DNA of 44,235 nucleotides from Armatimonadota bacterium (lineage in GTDB: Bacteria > Armatimonadota > UBA5829 > JAUSEB01). A program made the translations under genes and the position numbers. Below the pieces are notes generated by a model that was not told the origin of the DNA, did not search any database, and saw only the letters and a program-made list of their open reading frames with translations. The DNA is taken from NCBI GenBank assembly GCA_030649165.1, contig JAUSGG010000192.1:1-44235 (forward strand), given 5' to 3'. Positions 5,430 through 44,024 of the stretch are shown piece by piece (position 1 is the first letter of the stretch; every line of letters begins with the position of its first letter).

Positions 5430-6812
5430 ATGCCCGCTAAGTATCACATACATACACGGCCGGCGCCTCCGAGGTTCAAGCCGGTGGGCAAATACGCGAT
5501 CATCGACTGGCGCGAGGACTGTTCGGCCTGCCACAATTGCGTCAAGCGCGAGTGCGCGTACAGTGTCTATAACGACGAGCGCGACCGGCTGCTCCAGTCG
5601 GTGGACTACGTCGATTACCTGTACGAGTGCAAGGGGTGCCTTTGCTGCGTGCAGAGCTGCACGAAGGGCCTGCTGAGCTGGCAGGTGAACCCGCAATACC
5701 TTGCGCTGGGTGACGAAGTCTGGACCGCGGACATCATCTCAAGCACGTGGTATCAGTCGGAAACCGGCGCGATCCCCGTTTCCGGCGCGGGTTACCCTGG
5801 TCCCTTCAGAGGCCCCGGCTTCGATTCGATCCTGACCGACATGTCGGAGATTGTCCGTCCGACCCGCGACGGCATCCACGGCAGGGAGTACATCAGCACG
5901 CAGGTCGATATTGGCCGCAAGCCGATGAGGCTTTCCTTCAATCCCGATGGCTCGCTCGCGACCGATGTCTCGCCTGTCATCGAAATCCCGCTGCCGATCA
6001 TCTTCAACCTGATGCCCTGGCACGAGCTGAGCCTGAACGTCAGCCGGTCGATCATGGACGCCGCGAACGAGTTGGCCACGTACGCGATAAGTGACGAGCC
6101 GGAGCTGCTCGGCCATTCGGCGGCGGTCCCGCACCTGACGGACAGGCAGCCGGCGCCCGCCGGGCGGACTCTGATCGAGTTTGTCGATACGCCGGACGTG
6201 GCCGAACGGATTGCCAGGGCGAAGACGGCGGAGCCAAATCTCCTGGCGATAGTCAAACTGCCGTTGGGATCGGCCTCGATCCAGCGCGCGCTCCAACTGG
6301 CCCGGCAGGGGATAGACGCGCTGCACTGTTACGCGGACTGGCGCGGGATCGTCCAGGACGGCGGCGAGCGCAAGCACATAACCGAGGCCGTCCGCGAGCT
6401 TCACCTTGCCTTTGTCGGCGAGGGAATCAGAGACGAGATCACACTGATCGCAAGCGGCGGGATCTCGATGGCCGAGCACGTGGTCAAGACGATATTGTGC
6501 GGCGCCGACCTGGTCGCCGTGGATGTGCCGCTCATGATCGCACTGGAGTGCAGGGTGTGCATGAACTGCACAGAGGGTCTGAAATGCCCGGTCAAGTTTG
6601 AAGAGATCGACACCGATTATGCCGTGCAGAGGATAGTCAACCTGATGGGCGCGTGGCACAGCCAGCTTTTGGAGATGATGGGCGCGATGGGGATTCGCGA
6701 GGCGCGCCGGCTACGGGGCGAGGTCGGCCGGGCCATGTTCTTCGACGACCTGGAGCGGGAGTGCTTCGGTCCGATCTTCGGGCAAAGAAAGGCGTCGGCG
6801 GAGGTAAGGTGA
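5430..6812 (+). CDS. Glutamate synthase FMN-domain paralogue with ferredoxin head
   Basis: 460 aa. The N-terminus has two cysteine clusters, CSACHNCVKREC (about 31-42) and CKGCLCCVQSC (about 67-77), typical of [4Fe-4S] sites. The body resembles the FMN barrel of archaeal-type glutamate synthase: VRPTRDGIHGREYISTQVDI (about 143-162), LIASGGIS and, at the C-terminus, CRVCMNCTEGLKC (about 374-386), matching the [3Fe-4S] loop. It is shorter than the next gene and lacks the GGGMSFGS and DGSYGGTG motifs seen there, so it looks like a reduced paralogue, perhaps structural or electron-relaying. It starts 3 bases after metF and overlaps the next start by one base (TGATG). Whether it binds FMN is uncertain. 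Confidence 0.75.
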   Translation: MPAKYHIHTRPAPPRFKPVGKYAIIDWREDCSACHNCVKRECAYSVYNDERDRLLQSVDYVDYLYECKGCLCCVQSCTKGLLSWQVNPQYLALGDEVWTADIISSTWYQSETGAIPVSGAGYPGPFRGPGFDSILTDMSEIVRPTRDGIHGREYISTQVDIGRKPMRLSFNPDGSLATDVSPVIEIPLPIIFNLMPWHELSLNVSRSIMDAANELATYAISDEPELLGHSAAVPHLTDRQPAPAGRTLIEFVDTPDVAERIARAKTAEPNLLAIVKLPLGSASIQRALQLARQGIDALHCYADWRGIVQDGGERKHITEAVRELHLAFVGEGIRDEITLIASGGISMAEHVVKTILCGADLVAVDVPLMIALECRVCMNCTEGLKCPVKFEEIDTDYAVQRIVNLMGAWHSQLLEMMGAMGIREARRLRGEVGRAMFFDDLERECFGPIFGQRKASAEVR

Positions 6813-8344
6813 TGGCGACCACGGTTGACAGAAACGGAATCCCCGCCACTGCGATGGCCGGTCTCGGACTGGAGCCGCCCATCCGCGAAGTCAGGCCCGC
6901 GCCGGACCGGTTCAGGAACTCGCTCGGCAAGTACAGGGTGTGGCGGAGCGACGCGTGCGTGAAGTGCGGCAAATGCGAGGAGATTTGTCCGCGAGGGGTT
7001 CACGTCCGACCCGATGGCTATCCGGACTTCCTCACCGGCCTGGACTGGCGCTGCACCGCCGAAAAGTGCAAGGCGGCGGGCACGTATTGCGTCGACCATT
7101 GCCCGCAAAAGGCGCTGAAGATCGAGCTTTCGCCGATGTACAAGTCGCTGGGAGACTTTCGCTGGACGGCGGACTTGATCCTGAGCGCCTGGCACATGGC
7201 AGCCACGGGCGAGATCCCGGACGGAGAACTGGAGTATGAGATCGGCAACTCCGGCGGTGGTTTCGACAGGATGCGGTTCAAGTTTCCCGAGAACGGGCCG
7301 CGGACCGATCCGGCTGAGATTTCAACAGCATTACCGCTTAATCGCAGAGGCGACAACCGGCCTGAGATAACGATAGATGTCCCCGTTTACGGCGGAGGTA
7401 TGTCGTTCGGCTCGGTCAGCCCGCACACGATGCTGGCCAAGGCGCGGGCGGCGACGGCATGGAATACGTTTAGCTGCACGGGCGAGGGCGGATATCCCGA
7501 GCGACTTTTCGCTTACCGGGACCACGTGATCACGCAGGTCGCCACGGGCCTTTTCGGCGTGCGCGAGGAGACCATCAAGATGGCTCCGATAGTCGAGTTC
7601 AAGTACGCGCAGGGCGCCAAGCCGGGCCTCGGCGGCCATCTGTTGGGCGATAAGAACACGCCGGCGGTGGCCGCGATGCGCGAAGCGGTGGCGGGGACGT
7701 CGCTCTTTTCGCCGTTTCCGTTCCACAGCGTTTACTCGATCGAGGACCACAAGAAGCACGTGGACTGGGTGAAGCACATAAACCCGCGCGCGCTGGTGTC
7801 GGCGAAGGTTTCGACTCCTGTTGACGTCGACATGGTCGCCGTCGGCTCATACTTCGCGGGCGCGCATATCGTGCACATCGACGGAAGCTATGGCGGCACG
7901 GGGGCGGCGCCTGAGATCGCGAAGAAGAACATCGCGATGCCGATCGAATACGCTATCCCGAAGGTCGCCAAGTTCCTCCAGGACGAGGGCATCCGGGACA
8001 AGGTGACGCTTATAGCCAGCGGCGGGATACGGACCGCGTGCGATATGGCCAAAGCGATTGCGCTCGGCGCGGACGGGGTGGTTATCGGAACGCCGGAGAT
8101 GGTCGCGTTGGGCTGCATCCGATGCGGCAGATGCGAGAGCGGCCGCGGCTGCGCGCGGGGCATCGCCACCACGGACCCGGAACTGATCATGAAGATGACC
8201 ATCGAGTGGGGCACACAGCGGCTGATCAACATGCACGCGGCGTGGCGCGCGCAGTTGGTGAGCATTCTGAGCAGGTTCGGCATGCGCGACGTGAAAGAGC
8301 TTCGCGGGCGAACGGATTTGCTGACGCATTTGGATTACGAGTGA
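6812..8344 (+). CDS. gltB: Glutamate synthase FMN subunit, archaeal type, with N-terminal ferredoxin domain
   Basis: 510 aa. This is the synthase barrel that adds ammonia to 2-oxoglutarate and reduces the imine via FMN. An N-terminal ferredoxin module (CVKCGKCEEICPRG near 49, CVDHCPQKAL near 91) is followed by the barrel: YGGGMSFGSVS (about 193), GAKPGLGGHL (about 268), DGSYGGTGAAPE (about 355), ASGGIRT (about 402) and the [3Fe-4S] loop GCIRCGRCESGRGC (about 434-447). All the usual landmarks look intact. The ATG at 6812 overlaps the previous TGA and has GGAGG 7 bases upstream; a longer upstream frame is only overlap with the previous gene. The glutaminase and GXGXG domains are supplied by the next gene. 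Confidence 0.88.
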   Translation: MATTVDRNGIPATAMAGLGLEPPIREVRPAPDRFRNSLGKYRVWRSDACVKCGKCEEICPRGVHVRPDGYPDFLTGLDWRCTAEKCKAAGTYCVDHCPQKALKIELSPMYKSLGDFRWTADLILSAWHMAATGEIPDGELEYEIGNSGGGFDRMRFKFPENGPRTDPAEISTALPLNRRGDNRPEITIDVPVYGGGMSFGSVSPHTMLAKARAATAWNTFSCTGEGGYPERLFAYRDHVITQVATGLFGVREETIKMAPIVEFKYAQGAKPGLGGHLLGDKNTPAVAAMREAVAGTSLFSPFPFHSVYSIEDHKKHVDWVKHINPRALVSAKVSTPVDVDMVAVGSYFAGAHIVHIDGSYGGTGAAPEIAKKNIAMPIEYAIPKVAKFLQDEGIRDKVTLIASGGIRTACDMAKAIALGADGVVIGTPEMVALGCIRCGRCESGRGCARGIATTDPELIMKMTIEWGTQRLINMHAAWRAQLVSILSRFGMRDVKELRGRTDLLTHLDYE

Positions 8345-8419: not shown

Positions 8420-11062
8420 ATGAGAGACTTTGCACAGAGAATAACCGACAGCAGACGTTGGATGACCGAGGGCTGGTCCAGCGCTCCTCCGCGGCACACG
8501 GATGCGGAGGGCGGATGCGGCGTGACCGGGTTCGCGTGCAGCATTCCGGTCAGCGGGCGGCACATTTATGAGCCCTCGGCGCAGATGCACAACCGCGGAA
8601 ACGGCAAGGGTGGCGGCATCGCCGCCGTCGGGCTGGAACCGGGCCGGTTGGGTGTCTCGCGCGAAATCCTGAACGATGACTATATGGTTCACATCGCCCT
8701 GCTTCAGCCTGAGGCGCGCAACCAGGTCGAGGCGGATTTCATAATGCCGATGTTCGAAGTTCATCATGCCGAGGCGCTCGACCACATTGACGACTACCGC
8801 GACGTGGAGGGCCTCGAAGTTCGCCCGCCGGATGTGCAGCGTTACTTCGTGCGGGTCAAGCCGGAAGTCCTGCGCAAGTTCGCCGAGGAGCGCAATCTTA
8901 CGGGCCTGCCGGAGCGCGACATCGAGGACGAGTTCATATACCAAAATACCTTCCAGCTCAACTCGAAGTACTATGCGTCGCTGGGCGAAAAGCAAGCGTT
9001 CGTTTTGTCTCACGGACGAGACCAAATGATCCTGAAGGTCGTGGGTTACGCGGAGCATATCGTCACCTATTACAATCTTGAGGACTTCAAAGGCCACGTG
9101 TGGATCGCGCACCAGCGTTATCCGACGAGGGGCCGCGTGTGGCATCCCGGCGGCGCGCATCCGTTCTGCGGACTGAACGAAGCGCTCGTGCACAATGGCG
9201 ACTTCGCGAACTACTATTCGGTCAGCGAATACCTTGCGCAGAGGAATATCAAGCCCCTGTTCCTGACGGACACGGAGGTTTCTATCCTGGTGTTCGACCT
9301 CTGGAACCGGGTTTATCGATACCCGCTGGAATACATCATCGAAGGGCTTGCGCCGACCACCGAGCGGGATTTCGACATGCTTCCGAAGGAGAAGCAGGAG
9401 ATCTACCGCCGGATTCAGCGCAGCCACATACACGGCTCGCCGGACGGTCCGTGGTTCTTCATCATCGCGCGCAACGATGTGGCGAACGACTCGTTCCAGC
9501 TTCTGGGCATAACCGACACCGCGATGCTCCGGCCGCAGGTCTTCGCGCTACAGGACGGCGAGGTGCAAATCGGGCTGATCTGCTCGGAGAAACAGGCGAT
9601 TGACGCCACCCTGCACAGCCTGGCAAAGGAAGACAGCCGTTTCTGCCCGATCGCCGACGATTACTGGAACGCGCGCGGCGGCAGCTACACCGACGGCGGC
9701 GCGTTCGCGTTCAACGTAAAGCGCAACGGCGACGGCAGCAGGCATTTGACGTGCCAGGACAAGTTTGGCAGACCGCGCGAGGTCAGGCCGGGGAGGAGAG
9801 TCGGGGGAGTCGGAAGTGGCGAGCGGGAAACTCAGAACTCAGAACTCAGAACTCAGGGCTTCTCGGACGGGCCGGCGTTGTTTGAGGCGCTGAAGGCCGC
9901 GGCCCCGGGAGAGGGATTTGTCGAGCTTCAAGGGCTTTGCTCCGAAGTCGCGGCTCGGGCGTCGGACAGGTCTGACAAGTCTGACAGGTCGGACAGGATA
10001 GACGTCGCCATTGAGGCCCTCACGCTCATGATCGACCGCAGATACCCCGTGGGCGACAACAAGCGCTCAAGCGTCCTGCAGGTCGTGAACGATTGCCTGA
10101 CCGGCATCCTTGAATCGATTCCAACGATCACGGGAGAGCCGGCGTCACGCTATGCCAGGATCGACTGGGAAACCAGAAGCGCGCTGAGGCCGCCGGGAGG
10201 GCCGGAGGAAGTCCTTGTAGTGAACGCGCGCGGTTTCCCGCCCGAGGACGACGACTGCGACGCCCGGCTCGTGGTTCGGGCAAATGAGCTTGGCTGGAAG
10301 AGGTTCATCTGCTACGGCTACGTCGGCCAAAGGTTCCTCGGATGCGGGCTGGGGCCGGATTCAGACAACGTGGTGATAGACGCTTATGGCAGCTCCGGCG
10401 ACTATTTGGCCTCCGGGTTGGACGGCGCCACGGTGATCGTGCACGGAAACGCGCAGGACCAGGTGGCGCAGATACTCAAACGCGGGAAACTGGTTGTGCA
10501 CGGAGACGTCGGCCAGACGTTTATGTACGGCGCGAAGGGTGGCAGCGTGTTCATCAAAGGCAACGCGGCGGGGCGCCCGTTGATCAACGCCGTCGGCAGG
10601 CCGAGGGCCGTGATCAACGGCACGTGCCTCGACTTCCTGGCCGAATCCTTTATGGCCGGCGATCCGTTGAACGGCGGCGGGTTCGTTGTCCTGAACGGTG
10701 TCCGCACCGACGACGACGGAAATATGACCGATCTGGATACGTCTTACCCCGGATCGAACCTGTTCTCGCTGGCGTCGGGCGGAGCGATCTACGTGCGGGA
10801 CCCGCACCAACAGCTCGAGGACGAACAGCTCAACGGCGGGGCGTTCCTCGAGCTTTCGGACGCGGACTGGCAGATTATACTGCCGTATCTTCAGGAGAAC
10901 GAGAGGCTGTTCGACATTCCCATTTCACGCCTGCTGACGGTCGATGGAGTGGTCCGCGAGCCGCGCCGGGTTTACCGGAAAGTGGCCCCGGCCAAGCTGA
11001 AGGCGGCGATCGTGGCGGACGACGACGGCAATTTAGCGCTATGTGAGGAATCGAATGAGTAA
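8420..11062 (+). CDS. Glutamate synthase: glutaminase domain fused to GXGXG domain
   Basis: 880 aa. The N-terminal class II amidotransferase begins at GGCGVTGFA (Cys near 34). In this Ntn-hydrolase family cysteine becomes the first residue after propeptide removal; here the leader would be about 33 aa. The domain runs to about residue 450 (QMHNRGNGKGGG, HQRYPTRG, HNGDFANYY). From about 595 to 800 is the GXGXG beta-helix that in glutamate synthases follows the FMN domain (GRPLINAVGRPRAVINGT, LNGGGFVVLNG). The linker contains four 7-bp AACTCAG units (9829-9856) and 9-bp units (9961-10005) translated as SDR/SDK repeats, clearly repeat-derived. The ATG at 8420 has no visible ribosome-binding site; ATG 8462 is an alternative. 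It overlaps hdrC by 8 bases. Confidence 0.85.
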   Translation: MRDFAQRITDSRRWMTEGWSSAPPRHTDAEGGCGVTGFACSIPVSGRHIYEPSAQMHNRGNGKGGGIAAVGLEPGRLGVSREILNDDYMVHIALLQPEARNQVEADFIMPMFEVHHAEALDHIDDYRDVEGLEVRPPDVQRYFVRVKPEVLRKFAEERNLTGLPERDIEDEFIYQNTFQLNSKYYASLGEKQAFVLSHGRDQMILKVVGYAEHIVTYYNLEDFKGHVWIAHQRYPTRGRVWHPGGAHPFCGLNEALVHNGDFANYYSVSEYLAQRNIKPLFLTDTEVSILVFDLWNRVYRYPLEYIIEGLAPTTERDFDMLPKEKQEIYRRIQRSHIHGSPDGPWFFIIARNDVANDSFQLLGITDTAMLRPQVFALQDGEVQIGLICSEKQAIDATLHSLAKEDSRFCPIADDYWNARGGSYTDGGAFAFNVKRNGDGSRHLTCQDKFGRPREVRPGRRVGGVGSGERETQNSELRTQGFSDGPALFEALKAAAPGEGFVELQGLCSEVAARASDRSDKSDRSDRIDVAIEALTLMIDRRYPVGDNKRSSVLQVVNDCLTGILESIPTITGEPASRYARIDWETRSALRPPGGPEEVLVVNARGFPPEDDDCDARLVVRANELGWKRFICYGYVGQRFLGCGLGPDSDNVVIDAYGSSGDYLASGLDGATVIVHGNAQDQVAQILKRGKLVVHGDVGQTFMYGAKGGSVFIKGNAAGRPLINAVGRPRAVINGTCLDFLAESFMAGDPLNGGGFVVLNGVRTDDDGNMTDLDTSYPGSNLFSLASGGAIYVRDPHQQLEDEQLNGGAFLELSDADWQIILPYLQENERLFDIPISRLLTVDGVVREPRRVYRKVAPAKLKAAIVADDDGNLALCEESNE
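9829..9856. repeat. In-frame 7-bp tandem repeat (AACTCAG x4)
   Basis: Four exact units of AACTCAG inside the glutamate synthase gene, in the linker between the amidotransferase and GXGXG domains. The array is in frame, so the protein continues. Confidence 0.85.
9961..10005. repeat. In-frame 9-bp tandem repeat (GTCGGACAG type)
   Basis: Units GTCGGACAG, GTCTGACAA, GTCTGACAG, GTCGGACAG and GATAGACGT, translated as SDR/SDK repeats. The reverse complement of the unit makes up the intergenic array at 17622-17669. Confidence 0.85.
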
Positions 11063-11615
11063 GGCAACGCTTCATAGTATTGATAGCGCGTTTCTGTTGG
11101 AAATGGACCCGGATGGCAGGCTGAACCTGGCGTCGTGCCTGCAATGCGGCAGATGCTCCTCGGGCTGCACGATGCGGCTGGAGACGGACATACTTCCTCA
11201 TCAGCTCAACCGCATGGTTGCGCTTGGCCTGACCGAGCAAATGCTGAGCAGCAAAGCGATTTGGGCCTGTGTCTCCTGTCACACCTGCGTGTCGCGCTGC
11301 CCGATGAAAGTGGACACGCCGACGCTCATAGACAGGCTGCGCCAAAAAGCCAAGGCCGCACCGAAAGAGATGGACCGGGTGCGCATCTTCAACGAGGCTT
11401 TCCTGGCGTCGGTCCGCCGGTTCGGGCGCGTGTGGGAGTTCGGCCTGATGGCGGCCTACAAGACCCGCGCGCGGGATTTCTTCAGCGATTTGGGCAAGCT
11501 GCCCGCCATGCTGCGGAAGGGCAAGCTGTCGCTCCTTCCCCCGCCGAAGGGCGCGCGCAAAGCGGTTGCGACGATCTTCAACAGAACGATCGGGAAACGG
11601 AGGGCGGCAAAATGA
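11055..11615 (+). CDS. hdrC: Heterodisulfide reductase-like subunit C
   Basis: 186 aa ferredoxin-type subunit that carries electrons between HdrA and HdrB. Two [4Fe-4S] motifs are visible: CLQCGRCSSGC (about 28-38) and CVSCHTCVSRCPMKV (about 73-87). The C-terminal third is basic and helical (RDFFSDLGKLPAMLRKGK), as in other HdrC proteins. The ATG at 11055 is chosen because GAGGA precedes it and the protein then begins MSKATLHS; an in-frame ATG 12 bases upstream is less likely. It overlaps the upstream glutamate synthase gene by 8 bases and hdrB by 4, so it is translated as part of the same operon. Confidence 0.9.
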   Translation: MSKATLHSIDSAFLLEMDPDGRLNLASCLQCGRCSSGCTMRLETDILPHQLNRMVALGLTEQMLSSKAIWACVSCHTCVSRCPMKVDTPTLIDRLRQKAKAAPKEMDRVRIFNEAFLASVRRFGRVWEFGLMAAYKTRARDFFSDLGKLPAMLRKGKLSLLPPPKGARKAVATIFNRTIGKRRAAK

Positions 11616-12469
11616 AATACGCTTTCTTCCCGGGATGCTCCCTTGAATCGACGGCCAGGGATTTTCAGATGTCCACGCTTGCCGTGGCGCAGGCGCTGGG
11701 GATCGAGTTGCAGGAGATTCCGGATTGGAGCTGCTGCGGTTCCTCACCGGCGCACTCGACCGACGCGCTTCTGGCGGCGTCTCTCCCGGCGCGCAACCTG
11801 GCCGCGGCAAGAAGGCTTGAGAAAGATGTGGTGGTCTGCTGCGCGGCGTGCTACAGCCGGCTCGCGGCGGCGAATAAGGCGCTGGCGGACGATGAAAATC
11901 TGAGGATCGAGGTGTCCAAGGTCATCGGCGAGATGTACGGCGGAACCGTGCGAGTGAGGCATTTTCTGCAGGTCCTGCGCGAAGATTTGGGAATCGCCGA
12001 AATCCGCAAACTGGTCACGCGAAGCCTCGGTGGTCTCAGAGTCGCCTGCTACTATGGGTGTCTGTTGACGAGGCCGAGAGAGCTCAGCATTGTCAGCGAC
12101 CCGGAAGACCCACAGTTGATGGAAGAGCTTTTGGCCGCCGCGGGCGCGACGCCCGTGGAATGGCCTTTCAAGACCGAATGCTGCGGAGCGAGTTTCTCCA
12201 TAACGAGAACGGACACCGTGAAACGGCTGAGCGGCGAGATACTGAAAATGGCGAAGGAGAGCGGGGCCGACTGCGTCGTAGTCGCCTGCCCGCTCTGCCA
12301 GAACAACCTGGACTTGCGCCAGGCTGACATAGCGGCGGCGATCGGCAAGGAAATCGGCCTGCCCGTTTTCTACTTTACACAGCTATTGGGCCGGGCGCTG
12401 GGGCTTTCGGACGAAGCGCTGGGGATCGGGAAACTGATGACAAGTCCGGAGAAAGTGTTGGCACGTTAA
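11612..12469 (+). CDS. hdrB: Heterodisulfide reductase-like subunit B
   Basis: 285 aa. HdrB holds the two non-cubane [4Fe-4S] clusters that reduce a disulfide in methanogens; in bacterial complexes the substrate is often unknown. Two CCG-domain repeats are present: SCCGSSPAHS (about 41) with CCAACYSR (about 76), and YYGCLLTRP (about 147) with ECCGASF (about 190) and ACPLCQNNLDLRQ (about 226). Both cysteine sets look complete, so an active disulfide or thiol site is plausible. The start overlaps the hdrC stop by four bases (ATGA). Downstream, a 103-base gap with palindromic repeats separates it from hdrA. Confidence 0.9.
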   Translation: MKYAFFPGCSLESTARDFQMSTLAVAQALGIELQEIPDWSCCGSSPAHSTDALLAASLPARNLAAARRLEKDVVVCCAACYSRLAAANKALADDENLRIEVSKVIGEMYGGTVRVRHFLQVLREDLGIAEIRKLVTRSLGGLRVACYYGCLLTRPRELSIVSDPEDPQLMEELLAAAGATPVEWPFKTECCGASFSITRTDTVKRLSGEILKMAKESGADCVVVACPLCQNNLDLRQADIAAAIGKEIGLPVFYFTQLLGRALGLSDEALGIGKLMTSPEKVLAR

Positions 12470-17021: not shown

Positions 17022-17103
17022 GAGTGATTCGTGGTTAGTGGTTCGTGATTAGTGGCAGAGGCGCTGTCTTCCCCACTAACCACTAACCACTAACCACTCC
17101 ATC
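17022..17103. repeat. ACTAACC hairpin element, copy 1
   Basis: Imperfect 7-bp units (ACTAACC) form the right arm, and their complement GGTTAGTG forms the left arm, with a loop around CAGAGGCGCTGTC. It directly follows the hdrA stop codon. A near-identical copy follows the DivIC-like gene at 20800-20881. It can fold into a stem of about 25 bp but has no T-run. Confidence 0.75.
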
Positions 17104-17621: not shown

Positions 17622-17669
17622 CCTGTCCGACCCGTCCGACTCATCCGACTCTTTCGACTCCTCCGACTC
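17622..17669. repeat. 9-bp tandem array (CTCCTCCGA type)
   Basis: Five diverged units: CCTGTCCGA, CCCGTCCGA, CTCATCCGA, CTCTTTCGA, CTCCTCCGA. It ends a few bases before the metV ribosome-binding site. The unit is the reverse complement of the array inside the glutamate synthase gene. Confidence 0.8.
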
Positions 17670-17684
17670 GATAGGAGAAAAATA

Positions 17685-20809: not shown

Positions 20810-20881
20810 TGGTTCGTGATTCGTGATTAGTGGCAGAGCGCAGTCCCCACTAACCACTAATCACTAACCACGAACCACTCC
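20800..20881. repeat. ACTAACC hairpin element, copy 2
   Basis: Same arms as 17022-17103 (GTGGTTAGTGGTTCGTGAT ... ACTAACCACGAACCACT) with a shorter loop. It overlaps the stop of the DivIC-like gene and ends just before the stop of the convergent glycosidase gene, so it could act as a two-way transcription barrier. Confidence 0.75.
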
Positions 20882-27413: not shown

Positions 27414-27499
27414 GTTCTAAGGGTCTTAGGGTTCTAAGGGTTTTAGGGTCTAAGGATCTTAGGGTTTTAGGGTTTTAAGGGCGTAGGGCTTTAGGGTCC
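27414..27499. repeat. Telomere-like (C)TTAGGGT tandem array
   Basis: Irregular units such as TCTTAGGGT, TCTAAGGGT, TTTTAGGGT, about ten in 86 bases. Shorter relatives lie at 39779-39812 and, complemented, near 37605-37630. It starts one base after the stop codon of the coiled-coil gene. Confidence 0.75.
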
Positions 27500-39100: not shown

Positions 39101-39104
39101 GCGT

Positions 39105-39170
39105 CCTATCCGTCCTATTCGTCTTATCGGTCCTATCCGTCCGCCCCCTCCGACTCCTTCGACTCCCCGT
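39105..39170. repeat. 9-bp tandem array (CCTATCCGT / CCGACTCCT)
   Basis: Seven units: CCTATCCGT, CCTATTCGT, CTTATCGGT, CCTATCCGT, CCGCCCCCT, CCGACTCCT, TCGACTCCC. Same unit family as 17622-17669. Confidence 0.75.
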
Positions 39171-39466: not shown

Positions 39467-39781
39467 ATGAATCGCCGATTGTTGGTCGCGGCAGCGCTTG
39501 TCATTCTGGCGTTTAGCGCCGCTCAGGCGTGTTACGCGCAAGGACCTGTCTACTATGGCCACATGCCGCTTGGCGGCGCATATCCGTTCTACCCTGTGTA
39601 TCAGGGACCCTACGTGCAGTACTACGTCGGCGGAATCTACATTTTCGAACCGTTCGCTCCGCCGGGACACGTATTCTCCCAGCCGTTTCTCGGGCTTCCA
39701 CTCGTGTTCCCGCCATCGGTGATAAACAACAGCGGCCCGCCGCCGATCTACGGCGTGCTGTTGAGGCCGGGACGGTTCTAG
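39467..39781 (+). CDS. Small secreted Tyr/Pro/Gly-rich protein, unknown function
   Basis: 104 aa, not recognised. A signal peptide is clear: basic MNRR then LLVAAALVILAFSAAQA, with cleavage likely near residues 22-25 (ACYA). The mature part of about 80 aa is rich in Tyr, Pro, Gly and Phe (YGHMPLGGAYPFYPVYQG, FEPFAPPGHVFSQP) with no cysteine and few charges, suggesting a surface or matrix polypeptide. GAAGGAGGGG lies 6 bases before the ATG, an excellent ribosome-binding site. It is preceded by two tandem palindromic repeats and followed by a TTAGGGTT-type repeat. Confidence 0.65.
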   Translation: MNRRLLVAAALVILAFSAAQACYAQGPVYYGHMPLGGAYPFYPVYQGPYVQYYVGGIYIFEPFAPPGHVFSQPFLGLPLVFPPSVINNSGPPPIYGVLLRPGRF

Positions 39782-39855
39782 GGTTCCAGGGTTCTAAGGT
39801 TATAGGGTTTGAAGGCCATACGGGTGTACGCGGGTCTGACTCCTCCGACTCCTCA
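39779..39855. repeat. TTAGGG-type and 9-bp repeats before pheA
   Basis: CTAGGGTTCCAGGGTTCTAAG-like units (39779-39812) followed by TCTGACTCC TCCGACTCC units (39835-39855). Confidence 0.6.
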
Positions 39856-43958: not shown

Positions 43959-44024
43959 CCACGAACCACTAACCACTAATCACGAACCACTCCTCTTCAG
44001 GGGAGGGTTGGGGTGGGGTTCGGG
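43959..44024. repeat. Half ACTAACC element plus CT-rich palindrome
   Basis: ACGAACCACTAACCACTAAT (from about 43960) matches only the right arm of the ACTAACC hairpin elements. It is directly followed by a TCTTCAGGGGAGGGTTGGGG remnant of the CT-rich family. Confidence 0.6.

Follow-up and report, generated by a model that had tools for sequence, protein, structure and literature searches.

In-frame copies of dispersed simple repeats in the interdomain linker of a glutamate synthase-like protein

Heptanucleotide short tandem repeats of heterocystous cyanobacteria were reportedly found in RNase P RNA by Vioque in 1997. Heptanucleotide repeats of cyanobacteria are present in the P6b stem of the tRNA-Leu intron (PMC3488679). 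The TAACTGA heptamer direct repeats of the Beggiatoaceae, cyanobacteria and Bacteroidetes are mainly intergenic and patchy by taxon, and their copies within open reading frames (ORFs) occur in the stop-free orientation only, the majority of them at protein ends or in hypothetical proteins (MacGregor 2015, PMC4679880). The GGGAATC and GGGGA(C/T)T heptamers of Xanthomonas and Nostoc are, in the portion of the account drawn on here, genome-wide, mainly intergenic, G-rich and quadruplex-forming (PMC4692102). Longer units, the Rickettsia palindromic elements (105–146 bp), are dispersed both between genes and in frame in genes for conserved proteins, where they are tolerated (Ogata et al. 2000, reviewed in PMC2229807).

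Here we analyse two short tandem arrays inside a gene of an Armatimonadota bacterium. The window, meaning the whole 44,235-nucleotide stretch of DNA that was analysed, carries the following features at and next to this gene:

8420..11062, + strand: host gene for a fused glutaminase and GXGXG protein of 880 residues, with an open frame, family matches and ~80 full-length homologues
6653..8344, + strand: partner ORF with a glutamate synthase FMN domain (Glu_synthase, 4.6e-92) and 4Fe-4S motifs (Fer4)
9829..9856, + strand: AACTCAG x4 array, 100% matches, encoding part of the cycle NSELRTQ in a predicted disordered segment (residues ~471–479)
9961..10005, + strand: 9-bp GTCNGACNN array, four clear units and one degenerate, translated SDRSDKSDRSDRID, ~+7 residues relative to the nearest relatives

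The GATase_6 match (residues 224–292) is slightly under the curated cut-off and the GXGXG match (residues 635–802) is above it; none of the NCBIfam models reaches cut-off against the 880-residue protein. Split (archaeal-type) glutamate synthases combine a glutaminase–GXGXG protein with a separate gene for the FMN-domain partner, an arrangement that is also found in the window ORFs. Judged by its domains and neighbour, the 880-residue protein can be read as the glutaminase and GXGXG half of a split glutamate-synthase-like system (GltS-like). The real start of the partner ORF is probably downstream of the listed GTG. Translations of the ORFs directly 3′ of the GltS-like gene (11043–12469) contain cysteine motifs like those of HdrC and HdrB of heterodisulfide reductase. 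No RNA elements or tRNAs were found in the window.

As originally predicted, four exact AACTCAG units lie within the coding sequence, and both arrays fall between the glutaminase and GXGXG domains. The count of about five 9-bp units was also borne out: the GTCGGACAG array has 4.1 copies with 85% matches at 9961–9997, followed by a degenerate fifth unit (GATAGAC). Only one strand of the AACTCAG heptamer is free of stops, and it gives the N-S-E-L-R-T-Q cycle in all three frames; the 9-bp unit keeps the frame through its length. When sets of 85 linkers were dinucleotide-shuffled, an average of 0.1 sequences per set (at most 1) carried an array of at least three copies, showing that the linker arrays exceed chance.

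The 9-bp unit had been described as the complement of two intergenic arrays at 17622–17669 and 39105–39170. Both do lie between called or listed genes, but the description is loose, since the shared core, GTCNGAC, is self-complementary except at its centre:

17625..17670, + strand: intergenic member of the 9-bp family, GTCCGACTC, which shares the GTCNGAC core and ends 16 bp before an ATG
39102..39170, + strand: intergenic array, mainly CGTCCTATC at 39102–39142; the tail (TCCGACTCCTTCGACTCC, TCCGACTCC-type) alone is of the 9-bp type

The window genome (5.48 Mb, 99% complete, a draft of 266 contigs) contains 17 exact AACTCAG dimers and 163 matches to the 9-bp pattern TCNGACNNNTCNGACNNNTCNGAC, with no match to the reversed-pattern control in either case; the 163 matches correspond to fewer arrays, because in many the near-palindromic core is matched on both strands. 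A third heptamer, CCACTAA, gives 14 dimer matches genome-wide. Among 60 relatives both linker families are patchy, the 9-bp pattern being frequent only in genomes G000 and G020 (less so in G054) and AACTCAG only in G000 and G011. G020 has 70 matches to the 9-bp GTCNGACNN pattern (for example C12:69268-69301), in which positions outside the GTC-N-GAC core vary freely, which might point to constraint on this near-palindromic motif. The genome is a draft and miscounting of short repeats does occur, but an assembly or binning artefact in the repeat units is scarcely credible given that the reading frame is intact and that the same pattern is present in independent assemblies. Arrays of 28–45 bp are, moreover, shorter than ordinary sequencing reads.

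Placement of the arrays was surveyed in a sample comprising 57 fetched stretches plus the window, using crude gene calling from codon usage (coding density 0.81). Most of the sampled arrays are wholly intergenic (54/67), with 8/67 inside genes and 5/67 overlapping gene ends; random placement would put ~54 inside genes (P about 3e-34). Among the sampled arrays, and with these crude gene calls, repeat arrays are therefore strongly depleted inside genes. Several arrays scored as inside are doubtful, namely L116, L145 (predicted start), L149 (C-terminal tail) and L163 (low-complexity short ORF), and we do not count them as linker cases. CCACTAA contains stops in both orientations and has no copy wholly inside a called gene among the sampled arrays. 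Some CCACTAA copies overlap gene 3′ ends (L121, L122 and L126), and the array may provide the stop codon there. The GltS-like spacer of the window species thus holds in-frame members of two families whose other copies are mostly intergenic.

Two further in-frame cases were identified in this genome. AACTCAG units encode TQNSELRTQNS in the linker that precedes the SRP54-type GTPase domain of a protein that, from this domain and its N-terminal sequence, we take to be FlhF-like, and the 9-bp family is present in RpoN (sigma-54) as SSSDSSDSSDSFDSSDS, in the spacer that joins the activator-interacting domain to the core-binding domain. None of the nearest FlhF and RpoN orthologues compared has AACTCAG or 9-bp units. 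Relative to G003, the FlhF array replaces sequence at almost constant length; at the position of the RpoN array, relatives already encode Ser-Asp (TCCGAT, TCGGAC).

These observations allow comparison with the described systems. In having a short unit in tandem at many sites above chance, mostly between genes, the window families resemble the TAACTGA-like and other short tandemly repeated (STRR) families, but the units differ (AACTCAG, GTCNGACNN), so that they work alike with no membership by sequence; and whereas most TAACTGA copies within ORFs lie at protein ends or in hypothetical proteins, those of the window genome lie in interdomain linkers of conserved proteins. The Rickettsia palindromic elements share with them the in-frame copies in conserved protein genes (here GltS-like, FlhF-like and RpoN). 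Those elements are, however, 105–146 bp with a long stem-loop, whereas the arrays here are tandem arrays of 28 bp and ~45 bp with 7- and 9-bp units, and in-gene copies are here the minority. The cyanobacterial heptanucleotide repeats similarly occupy a length-tolerant part of a conserved gene, but in RNA genes, with other units and in another phylum. The Xanthomonas and Nostoc heptamers are likewise genome-wide and mainly intergenic, but they are G-rich and quadruplex-forming, and protein linkers are not described in the portion of that account drawn on here. The window arrays appear to work like these known systems while being, by sequence, members of none.

The original prediction offered two readings of the linker, the second being that it is a former intergenic gap between two once-separate genes. 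About 80 homologues show the same fusion, in records titled Armatimonadota, Deltaproteobacteria, Planctomycetota, Chloroflexi, Aminicenantes, ANME archaea and others. The stretch matching window residues 445–545 spans 93–106 residues in most homologues, ~50 in the Aminicenantes and 119 at the longest. In the closest relative the linker is an ordinary one with no repeats: from PG-(R/K)-R-V to ALFEA it has 25 residues where the window protein has 24, and the two sequences are unrelated. Seven residues are gained through the 9-bp array, which overlies a conserved Ser/Thr-Asp position; there the codon alignment shows TCC GAC in the sister genus. Repeat-free homologues therefore share one of two properties with the window linker, length being kept at the 7-bp array and sequence not. 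Separate ORFs for the glutaminase and GXGXG domains do exist, as a former gap would lead one to expect, but only as distant paralogues (~30–43% identical) and not among the ~80 fused homologues. Because homologues from bacterial phyla to the ANME archaea are already fused with a comparable linker, and the nearest relatives have no repeats there, we reject the former-gap reading as highly improbable. These alignments indicate instead that the spacer joining the glutaminase lobe to the helical/GXGXG part is old and under weak constraint.

We then considered the same linker across lineages. In 85 homologous genes, Tandem Repeats Finder detected arrays of at least three copies only in the linker or at its edge, with none elsewhere in the gene. 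The units differ by lineage: AACTCAG and the 9-mer in the window, GACTGCA in G020, CAGACAC at L058, GAGAAAA in a Methanophagales sequence (L084), AGGATTCA at L110, and GCAGAGA at the linker edge in G014. Different short repeats thus appear, from these sequences, to have been acquired independently in the GltS-like linker of related bacteria. The presence of different repeats in the same spacer of relatives marks it as a site where repeats can land and be tolerated, rather than the remnant of a gap between genes.

The GCAGAGA unit of genus g3 is itself dispersed (with up to 3 mismatches allowed, 6–30 matches per genome and none for the controls). It occurs in the GltS linker in G014 and G017 and in the FlhF linker in G002, G004 and G017, with further sites in UvrC, a radical SAM protein, a helicase, a CoA-activase-like protein and a loop of AroA, where it makes the protein about 5 residues longer than E. 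coli 1eps (manual count on the alignment). GCAGAGA copies lie in frame inside AroA and UvrC of this genus (L196 1577-1597 and L191 1588-1615). The 7-bp periodicity is present in G002 (L007, P = 0.004), G014 and G017; an eroded array proposed in the GltS linker of G004 (L008) was rejected because its 7-bp periodicity is not significant (P = 0.32).

The GltS and FlhF linkers therefore hold different dispersed heptamers in two lineages, AACTCAG in the window genome and GCAGAGA in genus g3. A rough hypergeometric estimate for this shared use is 2e-5 to 6e-5, on the assumption that all genes are equally available; they are not, so the figure mostly says that permissive linkers are few. We suggest tentatively, and would not be surprised to be wrong, that certain linkers such as those of GltS and FlhF are repeated targets for which lineage-specific dispersed heptamers form a renewable source of linker sequence, replacing the old linker at near-constant length.

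The linker repeats could alternatively be local microsatellites, generated by slippage in an unconstrained spacer and unconnected to the intergenic families. Units do differ between lineages, and the sister genus already has a TCNGAC at the site of the 9-bp array. In the G020 genome, GACTGCA was not found as a dispersed family, either exactly or with 3 mismatches, and is in tandem only at the GltS-like linker. Because the linker unit is all but unique to that site in G020, not every case can be attributed to import from a dispersed family, and local slippage contributes as well. As a general account, however, local origin is unlikely: both linker units of the window genome are genome-wide dispersed units, AACTCAG recurs in FlhF, and the dispersed GCAGAGA of genus g3 is in both the GltS and FlhF linkers.

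An AlphaFold2 model of the protein (34 aligned sequences, mean pLDDT 81, pTM 0.85) places residues 464–479, comprising the AACTCAG array and its upstream flank, below pLDDT 50, suggesting that the AACTCAG segment is probably disordered; the low values may partly reflect poor alignment of a replaced segment. In the model the 9-bp array forms a loop (516–519) and the first turns of a helix (520–539), with pLDDT about 79–86, where it extends a helical connector and may be structurally integrated. An adaptive linker, in which repeat length or helical/charged character tunes the glutaminase–GXGXG spacing, would fit the roughly conserved length (93–106 residues in most homologues) and its retention at the 7-bp array. 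This reading is nevertheless very unlikely, as the sequence is unconserved, the units differ by lineage, the Aminicenantes manage with ~50 residues and the AACTCAG array is placed by the model in a low-confidence loop.

The probable explanation is that dispersed simple repeats are tolerated where protein sequence is unconstrained. This agrees with the first of the two original readings, that intergenic-type repeats are tolerated as a linker, which is upheld by the genome-wide dispersal of the units, the low-confidence loop in the model and the presence of other repeats at this site in relatives. Arrays would arise at, or be copied to, many sites by replication slippage or by template switching, the latter perhaps at short matches such as the TCCGAC pre-existing at the 9-bp position in the sister genus. 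Within genes, selection would purge them wherever the protein sequence is constrained; at unconstrained sites only arrays in the stop-free orientation that keep the frame would survive, with the repeat presumably acting in the protein as passive filler.

What is new in these observations is that the same linkers are hit again: a limited literature search on interdomain linkers combined with intergenic repeats found nothing relevant and no description of it. It points to a route by which intergenic simple repeats may enter conserved protein genes, rarely, at linkers, in the stop-free orientation and at the same linkers in different lineages. The GltS-like proteins, FlhF and RpoN provide a natural set of linker replacements, and repeat-containing linkers should not be taken as gene-fusion scars.

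The window contains additional repeat arrays. CCACTAA heptamer arrays are present at 17073–17098, 20847–20879 and 43959–43991, and arrays of another type, TTAGGG-like with 8-bp units (AGGGTTTT / GGTTCTAG), at 27416–27498 and 39774–39809.
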